Positions 3,213 to 45,392 of a stretch of 64,000 bases of DNA are shown here, one piece after another (positions within the stretch are counted from its first letter, which is position 1; the number at the start of each line of letters is the position of its first letter). Under the pieces are notes generated by a model. That model was given only the letters and a program-made list of their open reading frames with translations, had not been told where the DNA came from and searched no databases. A program made the translations under genes and the position numbers. Source of the stretch: a virus; the IMG/VR virus record IMGVR_UViG_3300036944_001324, positions 124,001 to 188,000 of that record, one strand, 5' to 3'.

Positions 3213-3492
3213 CCTTGCTTCAATGAGGACAACATTGATGCTGTTTATGGGTGGGTCAAACAGAGGTGCTTCACAGCAATCCTAACCACCGTTCCGAAGA
3301 ACCGGAGATGCTTCCGTCAATCAACCTTCCCACTGAACTTGCAAAACAGCAGGGGATCAATCACATTATTTATCCCATTCCATCCAGTCTGAACCATCGT
3401 ATCCTAAAAAAATTCAATCACACATCATTGATTGGAGATGCATCCACCTCTGGATTGCAGCTTCGATCAACCTAACCTTTCTTTCAACCAAC

Positions 3493-3765
3493 ATGAAGAC
3501 CTTCGATTTTCTTGGTCACGCCTACGATGCTGACCGCGCTACTTTGTTGGTGCGCATGTCTGGGCCTGACATTATGATCAAGGTCGATGACATGGTACTC
3601 ACGAGTGCTAAGCTCGTAACTGACCACTTCAGTTTGCCCTGTGTGGTTCAGCATGAGAACAAGTACCACGCTTTGTCTTTGCCGCAGGACTTCAAAGCCT
3701 CCGGTGAAATCAAAGTGCGCTTGCTCTCGAAACCGACCCTGAAGCGATTCCGGGTTGGTGCGTAA
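3493..3765 (+). CDS. Unknown 90-aa protein
   Basis: ATG start. Beta-rich small protein (IMIKVDDMVL, EIKVRLLSKPTLKRF) with a basic C-terminus and no recognised domain. It lies between a long leader and a GC-rich terminator region. Confidence 0.65.
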   Translation: MKTFDFLGHAYDADRATLLVRMSGPDIMIKVDDMVLTSAKLVTDHFSLPCVVQHENKYHALSLPQDFKASGEIKVRLLSKPTLKRFRVGA

Positions 3766-3873
3766 GGCATGGATTTGGCGGTTTGCCAGGAACTGCTGGC
3801 CGCGCCGGTGCCCGCGTGAGATTCGTCTCATAGCCGACGCCGCGCCGTTTGCAGGTCCGTTTTTGAAACCGTC

Positions 3874-3966: not shown

Positions 3967-4362
3967 ATGTCCAAAGTCGACCTCGACGCGCAATACGTCA
4001 CCCCGATCTATGACCACCTGAAGGCCGGAAACACCGAAGAAGACCTGCACATCAAGACCGCACCCGAAGGCATCACCGGCGACTCCATCAAGCTGCACCA
4101 GACGCACGACATCAACTTCGTGGCCGGCGCCACCCGCGCCGTCACCCGCCTGGCCAAGGAAAACTTCACTGCCAACGACGGCCTGGAATCCGAAACGCAG
4201 ACCCTGGGCATGTCCGGCAAGAACAGCGTCACCGTGACCGCTGAACGCACTGGTGTTGTCAATGTGACCGTGGTCAACCGCGCGGCCGACGCCGGCGCAG
4301 GTGAACTCCGCAAGGCCACCAAGGCCTTCGCCGAGGCCATGAAAGAAGCCCAAGAAGCGTAA
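3967..4362 (+). CDS. Unknown 131-aa protein with high-expression codon use
   Basis: ATG with AAGGAAAAG upstream. Codons are strongly biased to C- or G-ending choices, as in the sheath, tube and ChmA genes and unlike its neighbours, which suggests an abundant protein. The middle is beta-rich (SVTVTAERTGVVNVTVVN) and the C-terminus helical (ATKAFAEAMKEAQEA). It has its own terminator on each side. A small abundant virion or DNA-associated protein is plausible; no family is recognised. Confidence 0.75.
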   Translation: MSKVDLDAQYVTPIYDHLKAGNTEEDLHIKTAPEGITGDSIKLHQTHDINFVAGATRAVTRLAKENFTANDGLESETQTLGMSGKNSVTVTAERTGVVNVTVVNRAADAGAGELRKATKAFAEAMKEAQEA

Positions 4363-4387
4363 CCGCTTCCGGCTTTCCTGCAATCGC

Positions 4388-4428
4388 AATAAAAGAGAGG
4401 CCGCTCGGGCCTCTCTTTTTTATGCCCT
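4388..4428 (+). terminator. Terminator hairpin
   Basis: AAAAGAGAGGCC / GGGCCTCTCTTTTTT stem with a GCTC loop, then TATGCC. Confidence 0.8.
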
Positions 4429-4454
4429 CTTTCATTTTTGTTTCAAATAAAATC

Positions 4455-4964
4455 ATGGCACAAACTAAATACGAACAACTCGAGTTGCTCAGAAAACTGT
4501 CTCTGCGCATCCAGCGTGAGATCGTTGACATCGTCGGAGGGACCCAAAATCTCAAAATGATCAAAGACGTGATTGAAGGAACTCCGGTCGATCCGTCTGC
4601 AGCGGACGTTTTCGACAAGCTCACTGTCGCTCAGGTTTTCAAAGCCGGTCTTCACAACGATCTGGCTGTCTTCCTGCGACTGCAGACTTACCACCGGCGA
4701 GTGCCTGGCCTGCTTCGGGAGCTGGGGGGAGCTCTTGGTGAGAAGAAAACTGGCATGGACAACGAAGCCTGGCTGAAAGTTGTCATCAGTATTGCAGCGC
4801 AGGCAAGCGGAGATACTGACAAACCCACGGAATGGTCCATCCCGTGCTTGGAAGAATTGGTAGACAACCAATTAGTCCTTGAAGATCTGAACCATCTTCG
4901 AAGCCGTAACGTCAACAAGCTTTTCCACAAGCTGGCTTTGAACGTCGCGTGTCCGGCACCCTAA
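4455..4964 (+). CDS. Unknown 169-aa helical protein
   Basis: ATG at 4455 chosen over the in-frame ATG at 4422, which lies in the terminator tail. Largely helical throughout (QLELLRKLSLRIQREIVDIV, AAQASGDTDKP, VLEDLNHLRSRNVNKLFHKL). No membrane segment or recognised domain. A single-gene unit between terminators. Confidence 0.72.
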   Translation: MAQTKYEQLELLRKLSLRIQREIVDIVGGTQNLKMIKDVIEGTPVDPSAADVFDKLTVAQVFKAGLHNDLAVFLRLQTYHRRVPGLLRELGGALGEKKTGMDNEAWLKVVISIAAQASGDTDKPTEWSIPCLEELVDNQLVLEDLNHLRSRNVNKLFHKLALNVACPAP

Positions 4965-5103: not shown

Positions 5104-6309
5104 ATGATCCATCGCAAGCAAAACCCCAATGTTGTTAACACTGTGCAGCAACCCGCCAAGATTACTGACATCACGGCACCCGCAGCTTTCTGTCACATCA
5201 AGCAAGGTCACATGGCTGTTGACGCTATGCATGCCGGTTTGATCAACGCCTACGAGTTGGCGTTGTACAACAGCCCTGCAGGCCTCGCTTACCACATCGT
5301 TAACATCTTCGAGCAAGAAGGTCTGGATGTTTTTATCGGTACCCAGCAAATCGACACGTTGCTCGAGCAAGGTATTTTGGAAGCTGTAGCGGCACTTAAC
5401 AAAGTTCGCAAACAAGTTCCAGAGTTTCTGGCGCAAGTCAACCAGATCCGTGCATACCTGCAAACACGCGACGCTGAGCACATTATCCGACTGTGTAGCG
5501 AAGTGGTGAGCTTCGCCAACAGTGGTAAATCTGAGTCCAGTAGTTTTAATGACACGCTCAGTCAGCAACTCGGCTGGGTAAACATTTCAGGTATTGAGCG
5601 GACCAACTACTTCACTGAACGTACTGCACAAGGTAGTTTTAACGATGTCTTCTGGACTAACGCTCTGAGCGAGATCTATGGATCGAACCTTCTTGCCAAG
5701 GTACGGTACATGAAGAATCCAGAGAGCTGGCCCAATCCAGCTGAAGTTGGTAAACAGCCTGCTGCAAGTTCGCCCCCGGATGTGCGAGACGACAACCCGA
5801 TCATCCGTACGGCTCCCTTCCAAGAAACCAAGGAAGACGATCGTAATCCTACTCCCGAGGAGTTGGTCTACGGTAAGACGGCTGGCGAGATGATCGAGAA
5901 GATGACGAGTGTTCGCTCGACTTCTCTTCTTCTGACTTTGTTCGCTGACGAGTTGTATTCGCGTCGTGACTTGGGGGTCGTGGGGATGGAAAAACTCTTC
6001 ATCGATTTTCAACAAATTGGCTCAGACTCCTTCGAAGAGATGATGGACCTTGCGCGAAGCCAGGACAAAGATGGGTCACTTTGGGTGACACGTTTGGAGA
6101 GCATGAAGGTTGACGAGTTGACCGAACTCATGTTGTGCCACTACAAGGCACTGAGCTACTTCGTTAGTCCGAGTAATAGGTGGAAACTCTCGATGGCGCA
6201 CGAAGACTACTTGTCTGTTTTCAAGACTAAGTTGGTACTGGAAGCTTTTCCAAGTACACCCCTGTCTGTCTGGAAGCAGCTTACTGAGCCGCGGCCTCTT
6301 TGGGAGTAA
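5104..6309 (+). CDS. Unknown 401-aa protein
   Basis: Start chosen at 5104 because AAGGAGTATCCTC lies directly before it. The N-terminal 130 residues are helical. About residues 190-245 form a low-complexity linker rich in Pro, Asp and Glu, and a second helical domain follows. This two-domain layout with a linker is common in phage structural or assembly proteins, but no family is recognised. Confidence 0.75.
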   Translation: MIHRKQNPNVVNTVQQPAKITDITAPAAFCHIKQGHMAVDAMHAGLINAYELALYNSPAGLAYHIVNIFEQEGLDVFIGTQQIDTLLEQGILEAVAALNKVRKQVPEFLAQVNQIRAYLQTRDAEHIIRLCSEVVSFANSGKSESSSFNDTLSQQLGWVNISGIERTNYFTERTAQGSFNDVFWTNALSEIYGSNLLAKVRYMKNPESWPNPAEVGKQPAASSPPDVRDDNPIIRTAPFQETKEDDRNPTPEELVYGKTAGEMIEKMTSVRSTSLLLTLFADELYSRRDLGVVGMEKLFIDFQQIGSDSFEEMMDLARSQDKDGSLWVTRLESMKVDELTELMLCHYKALSYFVSPSNRWKLSMAHEDYLSVFKTKLVLEAFPSTPLSVWKQLTEPRPLWE

Positions 6310-6318
6310 TGCTTTAAC

Positions 6319-6360
6319 GGCATAAAAAGAGGCTCCCGCAAGGGAGCCTCTTATGCTGTC
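6319..6360 (+). terminator. Bidirectional terminator between convergent genes
   Basis: GGCATAAAAAGAGGCTCCC pairs with GGGAGCCTCTTATGCTG around a GCAA loop. It sits between the plus-strand 5104 gene and the end of the minus-strand 6376 gene, so it can serve both. Confidence 0.85.
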
Positions 6361-6375
6361 TATTTCTTTTTTTGT

Positions 6376-8037
6376 TTAGACGGAGTGCAGCGGAACTGCA
6401 ACTACACCCAAACGCAAATCACCTTGGTCGGTACGGCGGATGAATTCCATCTGCAGATTCGACTGAGAAGACAGGTTCAGGGATACCGTGAACTCTTGGT
6501 TCCACATGGAGATGGGAACTTCAGAACGCGCAGCACCGATGAACATGGCAATGTGAGTAGGCTCTGGAGCCTTTTGCTCTTTGCGAAGGTCGTACAGCGG
6601 CTTGGAGTCGTAGAAGACCCGGTCAAGCCAGTCGTTGAAGTTGGTGATACCTGCACGGATGTTAAGACGCCAGAGGTTCTGGTTGATCATGTTCACCTGG
6701 GCGCTCAAAGCTTCACCGAACAAAGGTTCTTGGTTAGGCTCGAAAGCCAGCTTCCAGTTAGCACCTGCAACCGTTCCAGGGCTCATCAAGACCACTGTCT
6801 GGGTTTGGGTGTGGATGAAGCTTGGGAGGGCTTGCGAGACATCCTTGAGGTTGACGCGCACCGAGAGCTTCTGCACCAGACCGTAACCAACAGGATTGAA
6901 GACGTCCGAGCTTTGGTTGAAGTAGATGTAGGGTGTCACATCGAACATGACATCACGGTTCAGATCGCTCATGAACCAGCGCATCTGGTATTCAGACAGG
7001 TCAGAACGCCAGACAGGGTAGCCAGAGAGCTTGATCGTGAAGGCGCCGCGCTGCTCGGTTGTCACCAGATCGTACGGTTCAGCGATGTGCTTTCCGTCCG
7101 CCGATACGAGCTGTCCGTACGCCACTTCCGTGGTGTCAAGACGGTAGCGCAAAACCAGAGGAACGTGCTGGCCAGGGTAAGTACCTACGAAGCGCTCCAG
7201 ACCCAGCAGGGAGAACTTGCCACCGTCTACAGGCAGCAAGATACTGGAGCCGTCCGAGTAGTGGACTCGGCCGAACATGTTCATCGCTTGCAGTGGAACG
7301 TTGATCGGGTATTCGATCACGTGATCGTCCGTCTGACTCATGAAAGGCGATTCCAGCGTTACGTGCGAGACGTAACGCGTGTCAGCGGCCAGGTCAGGGA
7401 TGAAAGAGCTGTTGTTGACCCAGAGAGTACGGCGGGATACTTCCCCACCTTCAGCCGTGTAGATCACAGCAGTGACCATCGCGCCATCAACGAGTTCTTC
7501 GTTGGTGTAGCACGTAGGGATGACCTTGATGCCGTGGTTTTCATGGGTGTCCATGGCCACCAACACGAGGGGGATGTTGTGCGTCAGGAACGTACCGTTT
7601 TGGTCGTACAGCATACCCAAGACATGGCCCGAAGCAGAGATGTTCGTGCCTTTGAAGATCTTGGCGTATGCGGCGGTATCTGCGTGCAGTTTCAGGCGTG
7701 CGTCAACATGCAGCTTGTGCGGTGTCACGCTCGAATCGAGATAGATCCGGTACGTATCAGGCTGAGAGCCCACACCAGCGGCAAGCAGTTCACCTTCATT
7801 GGAAGTGCCGTTGGTGATGTCTTCGTAGGTCGGTACCAGCGTCAATGGATCGATCGCTGTGACGCGATACCGCTGGTCAGTGATGGGGTTGATCAAGTGA
7901 TCACGCACTTTAGGGACGTGTTTGTTCTGACCCGTCACACCGGTGTAGATCTGATCGATGTCCCACAGACGCCACAGAGCGTCCGGGTCGTAAGTGACGG
8001 TATAGCCGTCTGGAGCTTGGATGGTTTGGACTGCCAT
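6376..8037 (-). CDS. Large probable virion protein (553 aa)
   Basis: Beta-rich protein with no membrane segment. It is the last of a three-gene minus-strand block next to the sheath and tube genes. In phiKZ, genes 26-28 beside the terminase and sheath genes encode virion proteins, so a tail or injected-protein role is a synteny inference. No enzymatic motif is visible. Confidence 0.72.
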   Translation of the reverse strand: MAVQTIQAPDGYTVTYDPDALWRLWDIDQIYTGVTGQNKHVPKVRDHLINPITDQRYRVTAIDPLTLVPTYEDITNGTSNEGELLAAGVGSQPDTYRIYLDSSVTPHKLHVDARLKLHADTAAYAKIFKGTNISASGHVLGMLYDQNGTFLTHNIPLVLVAMDTHENHGIKVIPTCYTNEELVDGAMVTAVIYTAEGGEVSRRTLWVNNSSFIPDLAADTRYVSHVTLESPFMSQTDDHVIEYPINVPLQAMNMFGRVHYSDGSSILLPVDGGKFSLLGLERFVGTYPGQHVPLVLRYRLDTTEVAYGQLVSADGKHIAEPYDLVTTEQRGAFTIKLSGYPVWRSDLSEYQMRWFMSDLNRDVMFDVTPYIYFNQSSDVFNPVGYGLVQKLSVRVNLKDVSQALPSFIHTQTQTVVLMSPGTVAGANWKLAFEPNQEPLFGEALSAQVNMINQNLWRLNIRAGITNFNDWLDRVFYDSKPLYDLRKEQKAPEPTHIAMFIGAARSEVPISMWNQEFTVSLNLSSQSNLQMEFIRRTDQGDLRLGVVAVPLHSV

Positions 8038-40677: not shown

Positions 40678-41155
40678 AAATCTTGTTGCGTTGTTCTTTG
40701 GGTACAAGCCTTACGATTGGTTAGGCTGGATGTAACTTCACACGATTGAAATGGAGAAAAAAGTCAAGCACTACACCAATAGTATAGGAGATTGCTTTTA
40801 GATCTTCTACGTGGCACGCACGCGTCTCTTAAGAGACCTGCCACCAATGCACCGGGTAATGTGTCTCAATGTGATAATCGCGTTGGGTAACTGAACTTTT
40901 GGTGGCTGAGGAGGCGCTAGCTAAGGCGTGCTTTTTCTGAGAACCGTAACCATTTAGATGCTGAAACACCTGGGTTTGGAAGGTGTCCTGTACAAGCAGA
41001 GAAGGTGTGGTGATGAGAGGTTAAGTCTACAACGTGATGAAAAACGAAGTAGATCCTAACTTTTTTCAGCCACACATCATCACTGTGAGTTAGGATTACA
41101 CTCCTCCCTCGAGATGCATTTCGTCAACAAAGTACTTTCAAGAAAGGAACACCCC
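40678..41155 (+). other. 478-base leader and control region of the ChmA gene
   Basis: Divergent from the 39583 gene. Contains several inverted repeats, among them TGGCACGCACGC with a GTCTCTTAAGAGAC palindrome near 40820-40842 and ACACCT/AGGTGT near 40967-40985. Promoter-like copy 3 lies at 41064. No believable gene or tRNA. Confidence 0.5.
41064..41095 (+). promoter_or_regulatory. Dispersed promoter-like element, copy 3 (ChmA)
   Basis: TTTCAGCCACACATCATC then ACTGTGAGTTAGG. It is flanked by an inverted repeat, ATCCTAAC (41053-41060) and GTTAGGAT (41089-41096). It lies 61 bases upstream of the most strongly codon-biased gene in this half of the window. Confidence 0.55.
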
Positions 41156-43129
41156 ATGGGCGTTCAATCTGGTAACAACCAAACCAACGTGTCTTCTGCT
41201 GCTCCTGCACAACAAACCCCCGATGCGGGTCTGCACGTCCGTTCCGAACAAAAGCAAGCTGCTGCTGCCGACACCTCCGGCATGTGGAGTTTTGTCAACA
41301 GCGGCCTGCCTGAAATCGTCTCGACCAAAGCCGGCGGCGCCGACGTTCGCACCATCGTGGCCACCATCGCCGCGATCATGGCCAAGGAAGCTCCTCAGCC
41401 TGGCTTCGATGTGGACACCCACGTCGTGGACAACACCGTGGACACCGGCTGGCGCTACAGCACCGTGATCGTCTCGCTCAAGCAGAAGACCACCAACACC
41501 GTCGCGTTCTACCCGCTGGTGCTCGAGTCGACCGAAACCCGCGCCCTGGAAGCCGACGTGCGCGAAGTGGGCAACATCGTCTACCACGTGGACCGTGTGC
41601 CTTCGGACGCTCTGGACGCCGACATGACGGCAGCTATCGCCAAGCTGATGCTCACGACCTTCCCCGGTCATGAACTGCTGGACGTGGGCGGCATGGTGGT
41701 GGCTCGCACCGTCGATGCTGCCGCTGAAGATCAAGTGCGTCCCGTGCTGTACAACGCAGTGCGCGCCTGCTTGACCGCCATCGTGGAAAAGAACCCCGAG
41801 TTCGTCGACATGAACCTGGGCCTGCGGTCTGACGACACGTACCAAAGCGTCAACCTGCAAGTCACGAACCAGCACCACATCGACATCGTCGGCCAGCCCA
41901 TCCGCCAAGACGTGATCGTCACCCTGACGGCTCGCCAAAAGCAGAACGACCAAGGCAATCAGCCCGGTGGCCAAAAGCACCGCTCGATCCACGACATCGG
42001 TGGCACTGAATCCGTGATCGGCGGCATCGGTGGTTTCTTCGACGTGGTGATCACGCCTCCTGCGACCAACTCGGCCTACGCGATGGCCAACCAGAACCCC
42101 CTGGACCGCACGCGTTCGTTCGTCAAGCGCCTGGTGCTGACGCACTTCAACCAACCGCGTCTGTCGACCCTGTCGTCGACGCTGATGATGCTGAACCAAG
42201 CGACTCTGTTCTCCGATCCGTCGGTGAGCGATTCGGTGTTCTATCAGCGCATGAAGCAGCACCGCCTGGACGTCGGCGCCAAGGACAAGGGTGTGGACCC
42301 TACCGATGTGGGCATCCTGAACCTGATCAGCAACGTGATGAACGTGCCTGCCGGTCAAGCCGTGCAACCGTTCGATCTCAAGAGCAACACGCTGACCACC
42401 GATGTGTTCGCCGGCTTCATGAACCAGGTCTTCCACCCTGGCTTCTCGTTGGCGATCGACGTTCCTCGCGCCGGCCCACAAAGCTGGGTGCTGGACGTGT
42501 TCACCGGTGCAGCTGCTGGCCGTCCTGAAGCTCTGAGCGAAATCGTCCGTGCAGCCAACAAGCTGACCAACGGCGCTTTCGGCAATCACTTCTTCAAGGG
42601 CTCGCCTGCCGGTCAAAACATCGTGACGACCGACATGATCTTCTCCGAAGTGAACAACACCGTGCACAACGGCTACTACGTCAAGGGTGACGGCGTCAAG
42701 CGCGACATCCGTGAAGTGGACTACCTGTACGTGCTGAACCGCTTTGGCCAGATGGACAAGACGGCCCTCGACTGGGCCATGACGTTCCTGGTGGACCGCG
42801 TGAATCCCTACCAGCGCATGGCGCGCCGCAAGGAAATCATCGAAGCCTGTGTCGGCGGCCGCGTGACCATCACTGGTTTCAGCGAGCGTCACACCTTCAG
42901 CGATCACTTCGTCGGCTCGCTGTTCGCAGCCTGCCTGGACATGAAGCTCAAGCCCAACTTCCAGTACAACAACCCGCTGGCGGGTGCTACGACTGGTCTG
43001 GTGGCTCCTGGCTTCGTGGGCTCGCGCGGCATGATCAACGGCAACCTGCTGCAAGCTGGCTTCACCGCCGCTGGCAACAACGCGGCCGCTGGTGGCGCTT
43101 TCCACAACCCATCCCTGGGTCGTTGGTAA
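41156..43129 (+). CDS. chmA: Candidate nuclear shell protein ChmA (chimallin, phiKZ gp54-like)
   Basis: 657 aa; start 41156 with AAAGGAACACCCC. ChmA proteins are about 600-650 aa and self-assemble into the lattice enclosing phage DNA. Here the length fits, codons are extremely biased (abundant protein), the ordered core is flanked by flexible N- and C-terminal tails (first 45 residues Ala/Gln-rich, last 40 Gly/Asn/Ala-rich), and the RNAP beta' N-half follows, as phiKZ gp54 precedes gp55. No signal peptide. The assignment rests on size, context and composition rather than a motif; a major virion protein is the alternative. Confidence 0.72.
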   Translation: MGVQSGNNQTNVSSAAPAQQTPDAGLHVRSEQKQAAAADTSGMWSFVNSGLPEIVSTKAGGADVRTIVATIAAIMAKEAPQPGFDVDTHVVDNTVDTGWRYSTVIVSLKQKTTNTVAFYPLVLESTETRALEADVREVGNIVYHVDRVPSDALDADMTAAIAKLMLTTFPGHELLDVGGMVVARTVDAAAEDQVRPVLYNAVRACLTAIVEKNPEFVDMNLGLRSDDTYQSVNLQVTNQHHIDIVGQPIRQDVIVTLTARQKQNDQGNQPGGQKHRSIHDIGGTESVIGGIGGFFDVVITPPATNSAYAMANQNPLDRTRSFVKRLVLTHFNQPRLSTLSSTLMMLNQATLFSDPSVSDSVFYQRMKQHRLDVGAKDKGVDPTDVGILNLISNVMNVPAGQAVQPFDLKSNTLTTDVFAGFMNQVFHPGFSLAIDVPRAGPQSWVLDVFTGAAAGRPEALSEIVRAANKLTNGAFGNHFFKGSPAGQNIVTTDMIFSEVNNTVHNGYYVKGDGVKRDIREVDYLYVLNRFGQMDKTALDWAMTFLVDRVNPYQRMARRKEIIEACVGGRVTITGFSERHTFSDHFVGSLFAACLDMKLKPNFQYNNPLAGATTGLVAPGFVGSRGMINGNLLQAGFTAAGNNAAAGGAFHNPSLGRW

Positions 43130-43492: not shown

Positions 43493-45392
43493 ATGGCCAT
43501 CTATAAGACCATTGTGAGTTTTGACTCGATGTTCAAGAATGCTCGAGTCACTCCTGTGATCATCAATGACTTGCCGATCGTCACCGAAGAAGATCGCAAG
43601 AACAACAACGCACGCATCTACCATGAGTACACCAACGACGTGTTTAACACCACGCCGTCGTGCAATTGCGGTAAGCTCCGTTCCGAGTATCTGAAGGACA
43701 TTGTTTGTCCTGTTTGTAACACACCAGTGGAAAGCGTTCTTGAACGCGATCTGGAGCCTCAGCTGTGGATGCGTAGGCCGCACGGTGTTGCCAGGTTCAT
43801 CAACCCAGCAGTGTGGAACATGCTGCGGGAGTTCCTGTGGGTCAAAGAAGGTAACTTCGACGTTCTGCAGTATCTCACGAACACAGACTACCACCCCAAG
43901 AAGCTGCCGAGTTTGGCGTACTCCATTCAGGAAGCAGGGATCGTTCGAGGCTACAACAACTTTGTTGAAAACTTCGACGTGATCATCAAAAAGCTCCTGG
44001 GTTTGACGCGCTACAACAAAGCCGATCGCAAGGATCGCCGGATTGCGTTGAGCAAGGTCCTGCGTCGCTACGCCAACAACATCTTTTCTGACCACATCCC
44101 TGTCATCAACAAAAACTTGATGATCTTGGAGAACGTCAGTTCTGACCGGTACGTCGACCGTACCGTTCCGATGGCTGTGGATGCGTACCGATTGCTGCTG
44201 GGGATCGATACTGGTGCATCACCGTTCGGTGGTGAAGATGGTGATCGTACGGTCGGCTACAAGAAACTTCGTGCTCGTGAAAACCGGGTAGCGAAGATGC
44301 TGGACATGATCTGTAACTTCAACCTTGAGTACTTCAAGGCCAACGTTGCATCCAAACCAGGTCTGGCTCGCAAGCATCTGTGCTCTTCCCGTGCTAACTG
44401 GTCGGCACGCTCGGTGATCACTTCTCTGACCAAGCCGCACAAATACGATGAAGTCCATGTCCCGTGGGGTGTGGGTATCGGTTTGATGCGCTATCACCTG
44501 TGCAACCGATTGACGAAGATGGGTTTTCGTACCAATCAGATCTTCGGTATGCTCAGTGCAGCGGTCGTTAAATACGACCCACTCATTGACAAGCTCTTCC
44601 AAGAGTTCATCGCTGAGTCTCCTGAAAATGGATTGGTAGTTTGGCTGTGTCGTAATCCGTCCTTGGCGCGCAGTAGTATGCAGCGCATGCGGATCACGCA
44701 GTTCAAGACTGATCCGAATGATCCAACGATCGGCTTGCCGATTCTGTCAGTCACTGGTTTCAACGCTCGAGCGCAAGCTCAGGCCACCCCGTGTGGAAAC
44801 GCCGGGAGTGAATCTTTCCTAAAAGGGGAATCTCCCACCCACGCACGGTCTGGAACGTGTAGTGGAGGACAACCCCTTGCAAAGCATCTCTAGCTTTAGC
44901 GGACGCGTTATAGCTGGGTTTAAGATGTGCGCCTAACGGCCATCGAAAGGGCATACTGCGCGATTCGCGGCTTCAAGAAGCCGTCGTGGTGTAGCACTGA
45001 GTAGAGTAGGGTAGCTAGATCTAAGGCACCCGAAACGGAAAGGCACTGACCGCAAGTCTGGGGGTTCCCGGGCGGACGAAGTGCAAGATATGGTCTGACC
45101 ACGGCAGTAATGTCGTGCAGGTGATGCTGCTCACCGGCTAGAACTGATCAACTCTAGTGGACAAGTGGATTTCGACGGCGACGCCATGGGGTTGGTGCTC
45201 GCCTTGGATGAAACCATGGCAAAGATGATCGAACCCCTTGCTCCTCACAAGAGCGCATTCGACATCTCACGTTATCGCGGTTTGTCATCGAACAATTCCC
45301 TGCCCAAGCCAGTGGTTGCTACCATCAGCAGCTACCTGTCCGGTTCTTCCGGCAAGACTGACATGAGCATGATGGAAGAGTTCGCTGTTTAA
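43493..45392 (+). CDS. Non-virion RNAP beta' N-terminal half (phiKZ gp55-like), intron-split
   Basis: Coding exons 43493-44767 and 45168-45392 give 499 aa after removal of a group I intron. The N-terminal zinc site is Cys57, Cys59, Cys72 and Cys75 (CNCG...CPVC), as in bacterial beta'. The joined exons restore NADFDGD, with Asp426, Asp428 and Asp430 as catalytic magnesium ligands, followed by a bacterial-like segment (NNSLPKPVVATISSYL). The protein ends soon after the motif, the usual split point. Without splicing, translation would stop at 44893. Context after ChmA supports gp55 rather than the virion RNAP paralog. Confidence 0.88.
44768..45167 (+). ncRNA. Group I self-splicing intron, 400 nt, no ORF
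   Basis: Boundaries come from the protein frame: exon 1 ends ...AACGCT and exon 2 begins GATTTCGAC. The exon's last U can form the P1 U-G pair: GCU with GGC after a GAGC-GCAA-GCUC stem-loop (44769-44784). AAGATA at 45085-45090 followed by TGGTC fits J8/7 and the 3' strand of P7, with GACC near 45049 as the 5' strand. The last intron base is G. No homing endonuclease lies inside or directly beside it. Confidence 0.85.

Follow-up and report, generated by a model that had tools for sequence, protein, structure and literature searches.

Structure of the interrupted gene

The window, by which we mean the whole stretch of 64,000 nucleotides analyzed here, corresponds to bases 124001 to 188000 of an IMG/VR virus record of 271,654 bases. 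A gene for the nuclear shell protein (chimallin) is located at 41114 to 43129 (PHROG nuclear shell protein, E = 1.4e-64), just 5′ of a gene that is split by a 400-nt insert, and the same order of chimallin and beta′ genes is annotated in phages MIZ-Pa99, MKR2, and FishSpeaker. On the basis of the chimallin gene and the shared gene order, we assigned the window phage to the jumbo phages that form a nucleus.

The split gene encodes the N-terminal beta′ subunit of the non-virion RNA polymerase (nvRNAP), a homologue of phiKZ gp55. It was matched in 290 phage records by tblastn, and no relatives were found in bacterial and archaeal genomes. The protein matched Pfam RNA_pol_Rpb1_2, and the best solved relative of the spliced protein was the phiKZ gp55 chain 7ogp_A (E = 2.3e-76), with NADFDGD aligned to NADFDGD. 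In phiKZ gp55, the Mg-coordinating motif is DFDGD, residues 417 to 421 (PMC8287921). The Pfam and 7ogp_A matches thus bore out the original prediction that the gene is interrupted between NA and DFDGD, in the catalytic motif of an RNA polymerase. A second NADFDGD, which is uninterrupted, was observed elsewhere in the record outside the window (locus L022, G000:C1:117295-117309; GGLNADFDGDKCTG), and this perhaps belongs to the beta′ subunit of the virion RNA polymerase.

All features described below are on the plus strand unless stated otherwise. Exon 1 (43493 to 44767; identified by tblastn, 7ogp_A, and the Pfam domain) ends with the codons GGT TTC AAC GCT (GFNA), as read directly, and exon 2 (45168 to 45392; identified from the sequence, 7ogp_A, and the alignment to relatives) starts with GAT TTC GAC GGC GAC and encodes 74 amino acids, DFDGD...EEFAV, followed by a stop. 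The insert between them (44768 to 45167) reads CGAGCG...GGACAAGTG. Joining the exons yields a protein of 499 amino acids (...SVTGFNADFDGDAMGLVL...), and a comparison with intron-free relatives, as originally proposed, revealed that the joined protein is gap-free at the motif against Burkholderia phage FLC9 and five IMG/VR relatives whose gene is uninterrupted, with 38 to 41% identity overall and 32 to 42% across exon 2. A boundary one base leftward (AAC GC/.../G GAT) is equally compatible with the protein alone; the boundary given here was chosen over it by the group I rules, namely, a U before the 5′ site and a G at the intron end. The predicted ends, with exon 1 stopping on a codon boundary at 44767 and exon 2 resuming in frame at 45168, were therefore confirmed to the base.

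The insert cannot be read through, since its 400 nt do not make up a whole number of codons and stops close the reading frame. Its longest open reading frames (64 and 60 amino acids) are on the minus strand and come from a mechanical listing, with no support, in agreement with the description of the insert as 400 nt in length and ORF-less. The unspliced message would give a product of at most 466 residues, ending at a stop at 44893 and devoid of the Mg-binding aspartates, which indicates that a working late polymerase requires splicing. The insert may affect late transcription, and the earlier proposal that splicing gates late transcription would hold, by deduction, only weakly, in that no working polymerase could form without splicing.

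Detection of the insert by covariance models

The Rfam group I model (RF00028) gave no match in the window, neither at the gathering cut-off nor at an E value of ≤5. In positive controls, the same model did match introns of other phages, in eight loci, at or near this site, and the insert of phage EL at the identical site exceeded the Rfam cut-off (54.9 bits). Because Rfam was blind to the window insert yet recognized its relatives, we built a custom covariance model, R1, from seven introns (EL, MIZ-Pa99, 2050HW, PS119XW, Koomba, fnug, and PS2), leaving the window out. P3 to P8 were assigned to the aligned cores with the Rfam alignment as a guide; the intron of FishSpeaker and the second intron of PS2 were omitted, as P3′ and P8 were misplaced in a nine-intron MAFFT alignment.

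R1 matched the window once in 64 kb, at 44811 to 45100, with 36.0 bits and E = 7.4e-8. There was no further match in the whole 272-kb record and none at E ≤ 1 in the intron-free loci L002 to L007. The score is weak relative to the 41 to 172 bits of most relatives, two others scoring 39 and 24 bits. The covariance-model search that had been suggested as a check therefore failed with Rfam and succeeded with our own seven-phage model, and divergent introns like that of the window escape the Rfam model. The best R1 alignment path departs from our hand map between P6 and P7, and in an unfiltered full-model run the intron appeared in two matches, the second of which has P4 to P7 as on the hand map. 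Since that map was drawn by eye, the E value of the model was taken as the independent measure.

Secondary structure of the insert

The conserved core elements P3, P4, P6, P7, and P8 are present in order, with P3 and P7 interlocked. P1 (44765 to 44784) pairs the exon GCU with GGC and continues in a GAGC/GCUC stem closed by a GCAA loop; it was read from the sequence, is present in the unconstrained minimum free energy (MFE) fold, and contains the wobble pair U44767-G44782 at the 5′ splice site. The exon-guide pairing is only 3 bp, as it is in EL. A P2-like hairpin, CACCCCG...CGGGAGUG (44785 to 44810), was assigned by its position relative to EL. The 5′ strand of P3, UCUUUCC (44813 to 44819; hand map, covariation), pairs with GGAAAGG at 45037 to 45043 (model match, hand map), and the P4 strands AAGGGG (44823 to 44828) and CCCCUU (44873 to 44878; both from the hand map and covariation) enclose P5, CUCCCAC/GUGGAGG including its loop (44832 to 44868; model match, hand map). 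P6/P6a, GC AAA GCAUCU...AGAUGU GC GC, occupies 44879 to 44932 (full-model run, hand map).

P7, the guanosine-binding helix, is formed by GGCCAU (44938 to 44943; hand map) and AUGGUC (45090 to 45095) and is of the same GGCCA/UGGUC variant as in EL. The 93 nt between P7 and P3′ (44944 to 45036) constitute a putative extension of the P7.1/P7.2 type, a feature of subgroup IA2, assigned by position, with length and place as in relatives. P8, CACU...AGUG including its loop (45044 to 45083; model match, hand map), is followed by J8/7, AAGAUA (45085 to 45090), and the 3′ strand of P7, the two together spanning 45085 to 45095 (sequence, model match). Hairpins P9, P9.1, and P9.2 lie at 45100 to 45157 (sequence, MFE fold, comparison with EL), and the intron ends at 45159 to 45167 with GGACAAGUG, identical to EL, its last base being G45167. 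Thus, the hallmarks listed in the original prediction, namely, the U-G pair, the AAGATA element followed by a P7 strand, and the terminal G, are all in place. A P10 pairing was sought by eye, and none was found.

All core pairs from P3 to P8 on the hand map are canonical (30/30), and 10 of them are altered on both sides relative to EL. P4 is the clearest compensatory helix, being UGCUGG/CCAGCA in EL and AAGGGG/CCCCUU in the window; four of its six pairs are altered on both sides relative to the seven introns used for R1, which have UGCUGG. In the trimmed alignment including the window, 97.6% of the cells pair, versus 83.1% in shuffled and at most 44.7% in slid controls, and two-sided changes were observed at 19 pairs versus 7.2 (shuffled) and at most 4 (slid). 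The unconstrained fold of the insert was only mildly better than those of shuffled sequences (z = −2.0).

Introns at the same site in other phages

By blastn and nhmmer against all fetched loci, the window intron showed significant similarity only to the introns of EL, MIZ-Pa99, and vB_PQ1, all at the same site. It fits the EL type by site and by a similarity exceeding that to introns elsewhere. In EL (AJ697969, between ORF024 and ORF026), the insertion site, NA/DFDGD, is identical to that in the window, and the two introns have in common the P1 ends GCU/GGC, the P7 variant, and the last nine intron bases, with 68 to 74% identity over the last ~80 nt. Their P4 and P9.2 helices consist of different complementary sequences, and the P9.1 stems, GGUGA/UCACC in EL and GGUGU/ACACC in the window, likewise differ while being equally complementary and in the same places. 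The EL intron is 1,417 nt long, and its P1 loop contains an HNH endonuclease gene (ORF025, annotated as intron-encoded HNH) flanked by long complementary strands, whereas the 400-nt window intron has a P1 stem closed by the GCAA tetraloop there. An HNH ORF of the EL type is absent from the window insert, which has no ORF beyond 64 amino acids.

Introns of the Seoulviruses SPLA3 and EC001 resemble that of the window in being ORF-less and in lying at the same codon boundary (NG/DFDGD); they are 356 nt long, have the 3′ end GGACAAACAG, and outscore the window intron in the model (58.7 and 62.8 bits). No direct similarity between them and the window intron was detected by blastn or nhmmer. The interrupted gene of these phages is annotated as two RNA polymerase genes, and Salmonella phage SPN3US, a relative of both, provides a natural empty site, the uninterrupted ...KMANGDFDGDQ, which places the SPLA3/EC001 intron at the same codon boundary as that of the window. 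These data indicated that ORF-less introns at the NA/D site are already present in isolated phages.

The insert as a group I intron and rival explanations

The match of a covariance model built without the window, the covariation in the core, and the same-site introns in EL, MIZ-Pa99, vB_PQ1, SPLA3, and EC001 all support the classification of the insert as a group I intron. We consider it almost certain that the insert represents an EL-lineage group I intron ribozyme, lacking the P1-loop HNH gene of EL and predicted to splice. Three other explanations were weighed against this reading. Inteins also favor catalytic motifs, as is generally known, and an intein or an extra protein domain could be imagined here; known inteins, to our knowledge, are all longer than 400 nt, and translation through the insert is ruled out by the in-frame stops and by a length that is not a multiple of 3. 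Nor does EL present a matching insertion that is translated as protein, an outcome that had been named as counterevidence, since its first intron codon is a stop (GCT/TAA). The chance of this explanation is accordingly negligible. It is highly improbable, too, that the gene is truly split into two separate polypeptides with the insert as a mere spacer. These phages normally have split RNA polymerase subunits, and several homologues are annotated as two ORFs in GenBank, but exon 2 opens with the GAT of DFDGD and has as its sole start an in-intron GTG, the supposed spacer contains a full group I fold, and the cryo-EM structure of the phiKZ subunit shows a single chain that includes DFDGD (PMC8287921, 7ogp_A).

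A degenerate group I intron that has lost splicing, residing in a defective or mis-assembled genome, would be in keeping with the divergent core and the lack of an Rfam match, and the record is indeed a metagenomic contig of unstated completeness. Decay, however, would break core pairs, whereas every one is preserved here, with compensatory changes; the two exons are open, and their conservation extends right to the splice sites; and the phage needs beta′, as knock-down of PHIKZ055 strongly reduced plaques (PMC12571901). We therefore regard this explanation as very unlikely, although less so than the other two.

Judged from sequence features, the group I intron of the window probably splices. 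The nvRNAP beta′ transcript would fold into the core P1 to P9, and a guanosine bound in P7 would attack the U44767/C44768 junction, which is set by the U-G pair of P1. The freed end of exon 1 would then attack after G45167, joining NA to DFDGD.

Endonuclease and origin of the intron

In agreement with the statement that no homing endonuclease lies nearby, the 272-kb record, which is possibly incomplete, had no match to the four families HNH_3, HNH, NUMOD4, and GIY-YIG. A search of this record with the EL protein, run without a positive control, found no relative of the EL intron endonuclease. At the protein level, the exons of EL and the window share only 24% identity, and the nearer RNA polymerase relatives (about 40%; L003 to L007) have no intron. 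Given that EL-type similarity is restricted to same-site introns despite this low exon identity and that the nearer relatives are intron-free, the simplest reading of the sequences is that an EL-type intron moved laterally and then lost its endonuclease. Ancient presence with many losses is the alternative and is less simple. We infer that the intron reached this gene horizontally, by homing or another route, and has since become stranded.

A tentative and rather doubtful proposal is that the ORF-less intron is kept as an occupant of the target, whose recognition site it splits, so that the HNH endonucleases of co-infecting EL-like or phiKZ-like phages can no longer cut the polymerase gene. 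If this were true, NADFDGD would be a battlefield on which a stripped-down intron serves as immunity.

Introns across the NADFDGD motif

Among the phages sampled, introns recognized by Rfam or by our own model were found at five codon boundaries of NADFDGD; the sample was picked by interrupted matches and is not a census. The boundary between N and A is interrupted in phiKZ, MKR2, and Koomba; NA/D in the window, EL, MIZ-Pa99, vB_PQ1, SPLA3, and EC001; NAD/F in PS2 (first intron), PDCC-1, and L008; DFDG/D in 2050HW, FishSpeaker, PS2 (second intron), D3, and Totoro; and DFDGD/Q in PS119XW, Brmt, and fnug. In all introns with both boundaries read, a U precedes the intron and a G ends it. Stricter pattern scans of IMG/VR returned EL only, and two extra contigs from a looser scan were rejected, as the intron was absent and they were apparently unrelated.

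The phiKZ gene is split as PHIKZ055-056-056.1 by a group I intron (model match of 155 bits) in the same gene and motif as that of the window; it differs in lying one codon upstream (N/ADFDGD) and in containing a separate ORF, PHIKZ056. This intron in gp55 was not mentioned in the nvRNAP papers searched. A putative group I intron has been described for gp210 of PhiPA3 (Birkholz 2024, PMC11620839), which likewise concerns an RNA polymerase gene of a jumbo phage and adjoins conserved aspartates; unlike that of the window, it is in a virion RNA polymerase, in beta rather than beta′, and carries the endonuclease gp210. PMC12908238 and PMC13282480 contain general statements only, and no account of a hotspot in the non-virion beta′ gene was found in the literature searched (subscription papers lay outside its scope). 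The kind of intron is thus already known, as many related phages, phiKZ included, have introns in the same motif; what is new is the divergence of the window member, its EL-type origin without an endonuclease, and how widely the hotspot extends.

In the late polymerase of nucleus-forming phages, introns interrupt the catalytic Mg motif at five boundaries in this sample, sometimes twice in one gene. Such a hotspot offers a natural experiment on two questions, namely, why self-splicing introns come to occupy catalytic codons and what retains these introns once the endonuclease is lost. In practical terms, annotation divides the beta′ gene of such phages into two.

Further arrangements were observed at individual loci. 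Aeromonas phage PS2 (L020, MN453779) has two group I introns in one beta′ gene, at 3391 to 3864 and from 3874, separated by a 9-nt exon, TTCGACGGT (F-D-G), and its annotated HNH gene is located 3′ of the core of the second intron, before exon 3. The metagenomic relative L008 (IMGVR_UViG_3300028733_000003) contains another ORF-less group I intron, at 6306 to 6698 (above the Rfam cut-off, 55.7 bits), whose site, GAD/FDGD, is three bases downstream of that in the window. In Pseudomonas phage fnug (L018, 3300 to 6190), at least two model-recognized introns are present in the beta′ gene, at 4246 to 4475 and 4682 to 4932, with further ORFs between the exons, and the first of these introns lies upstream, after the FHRN codons.
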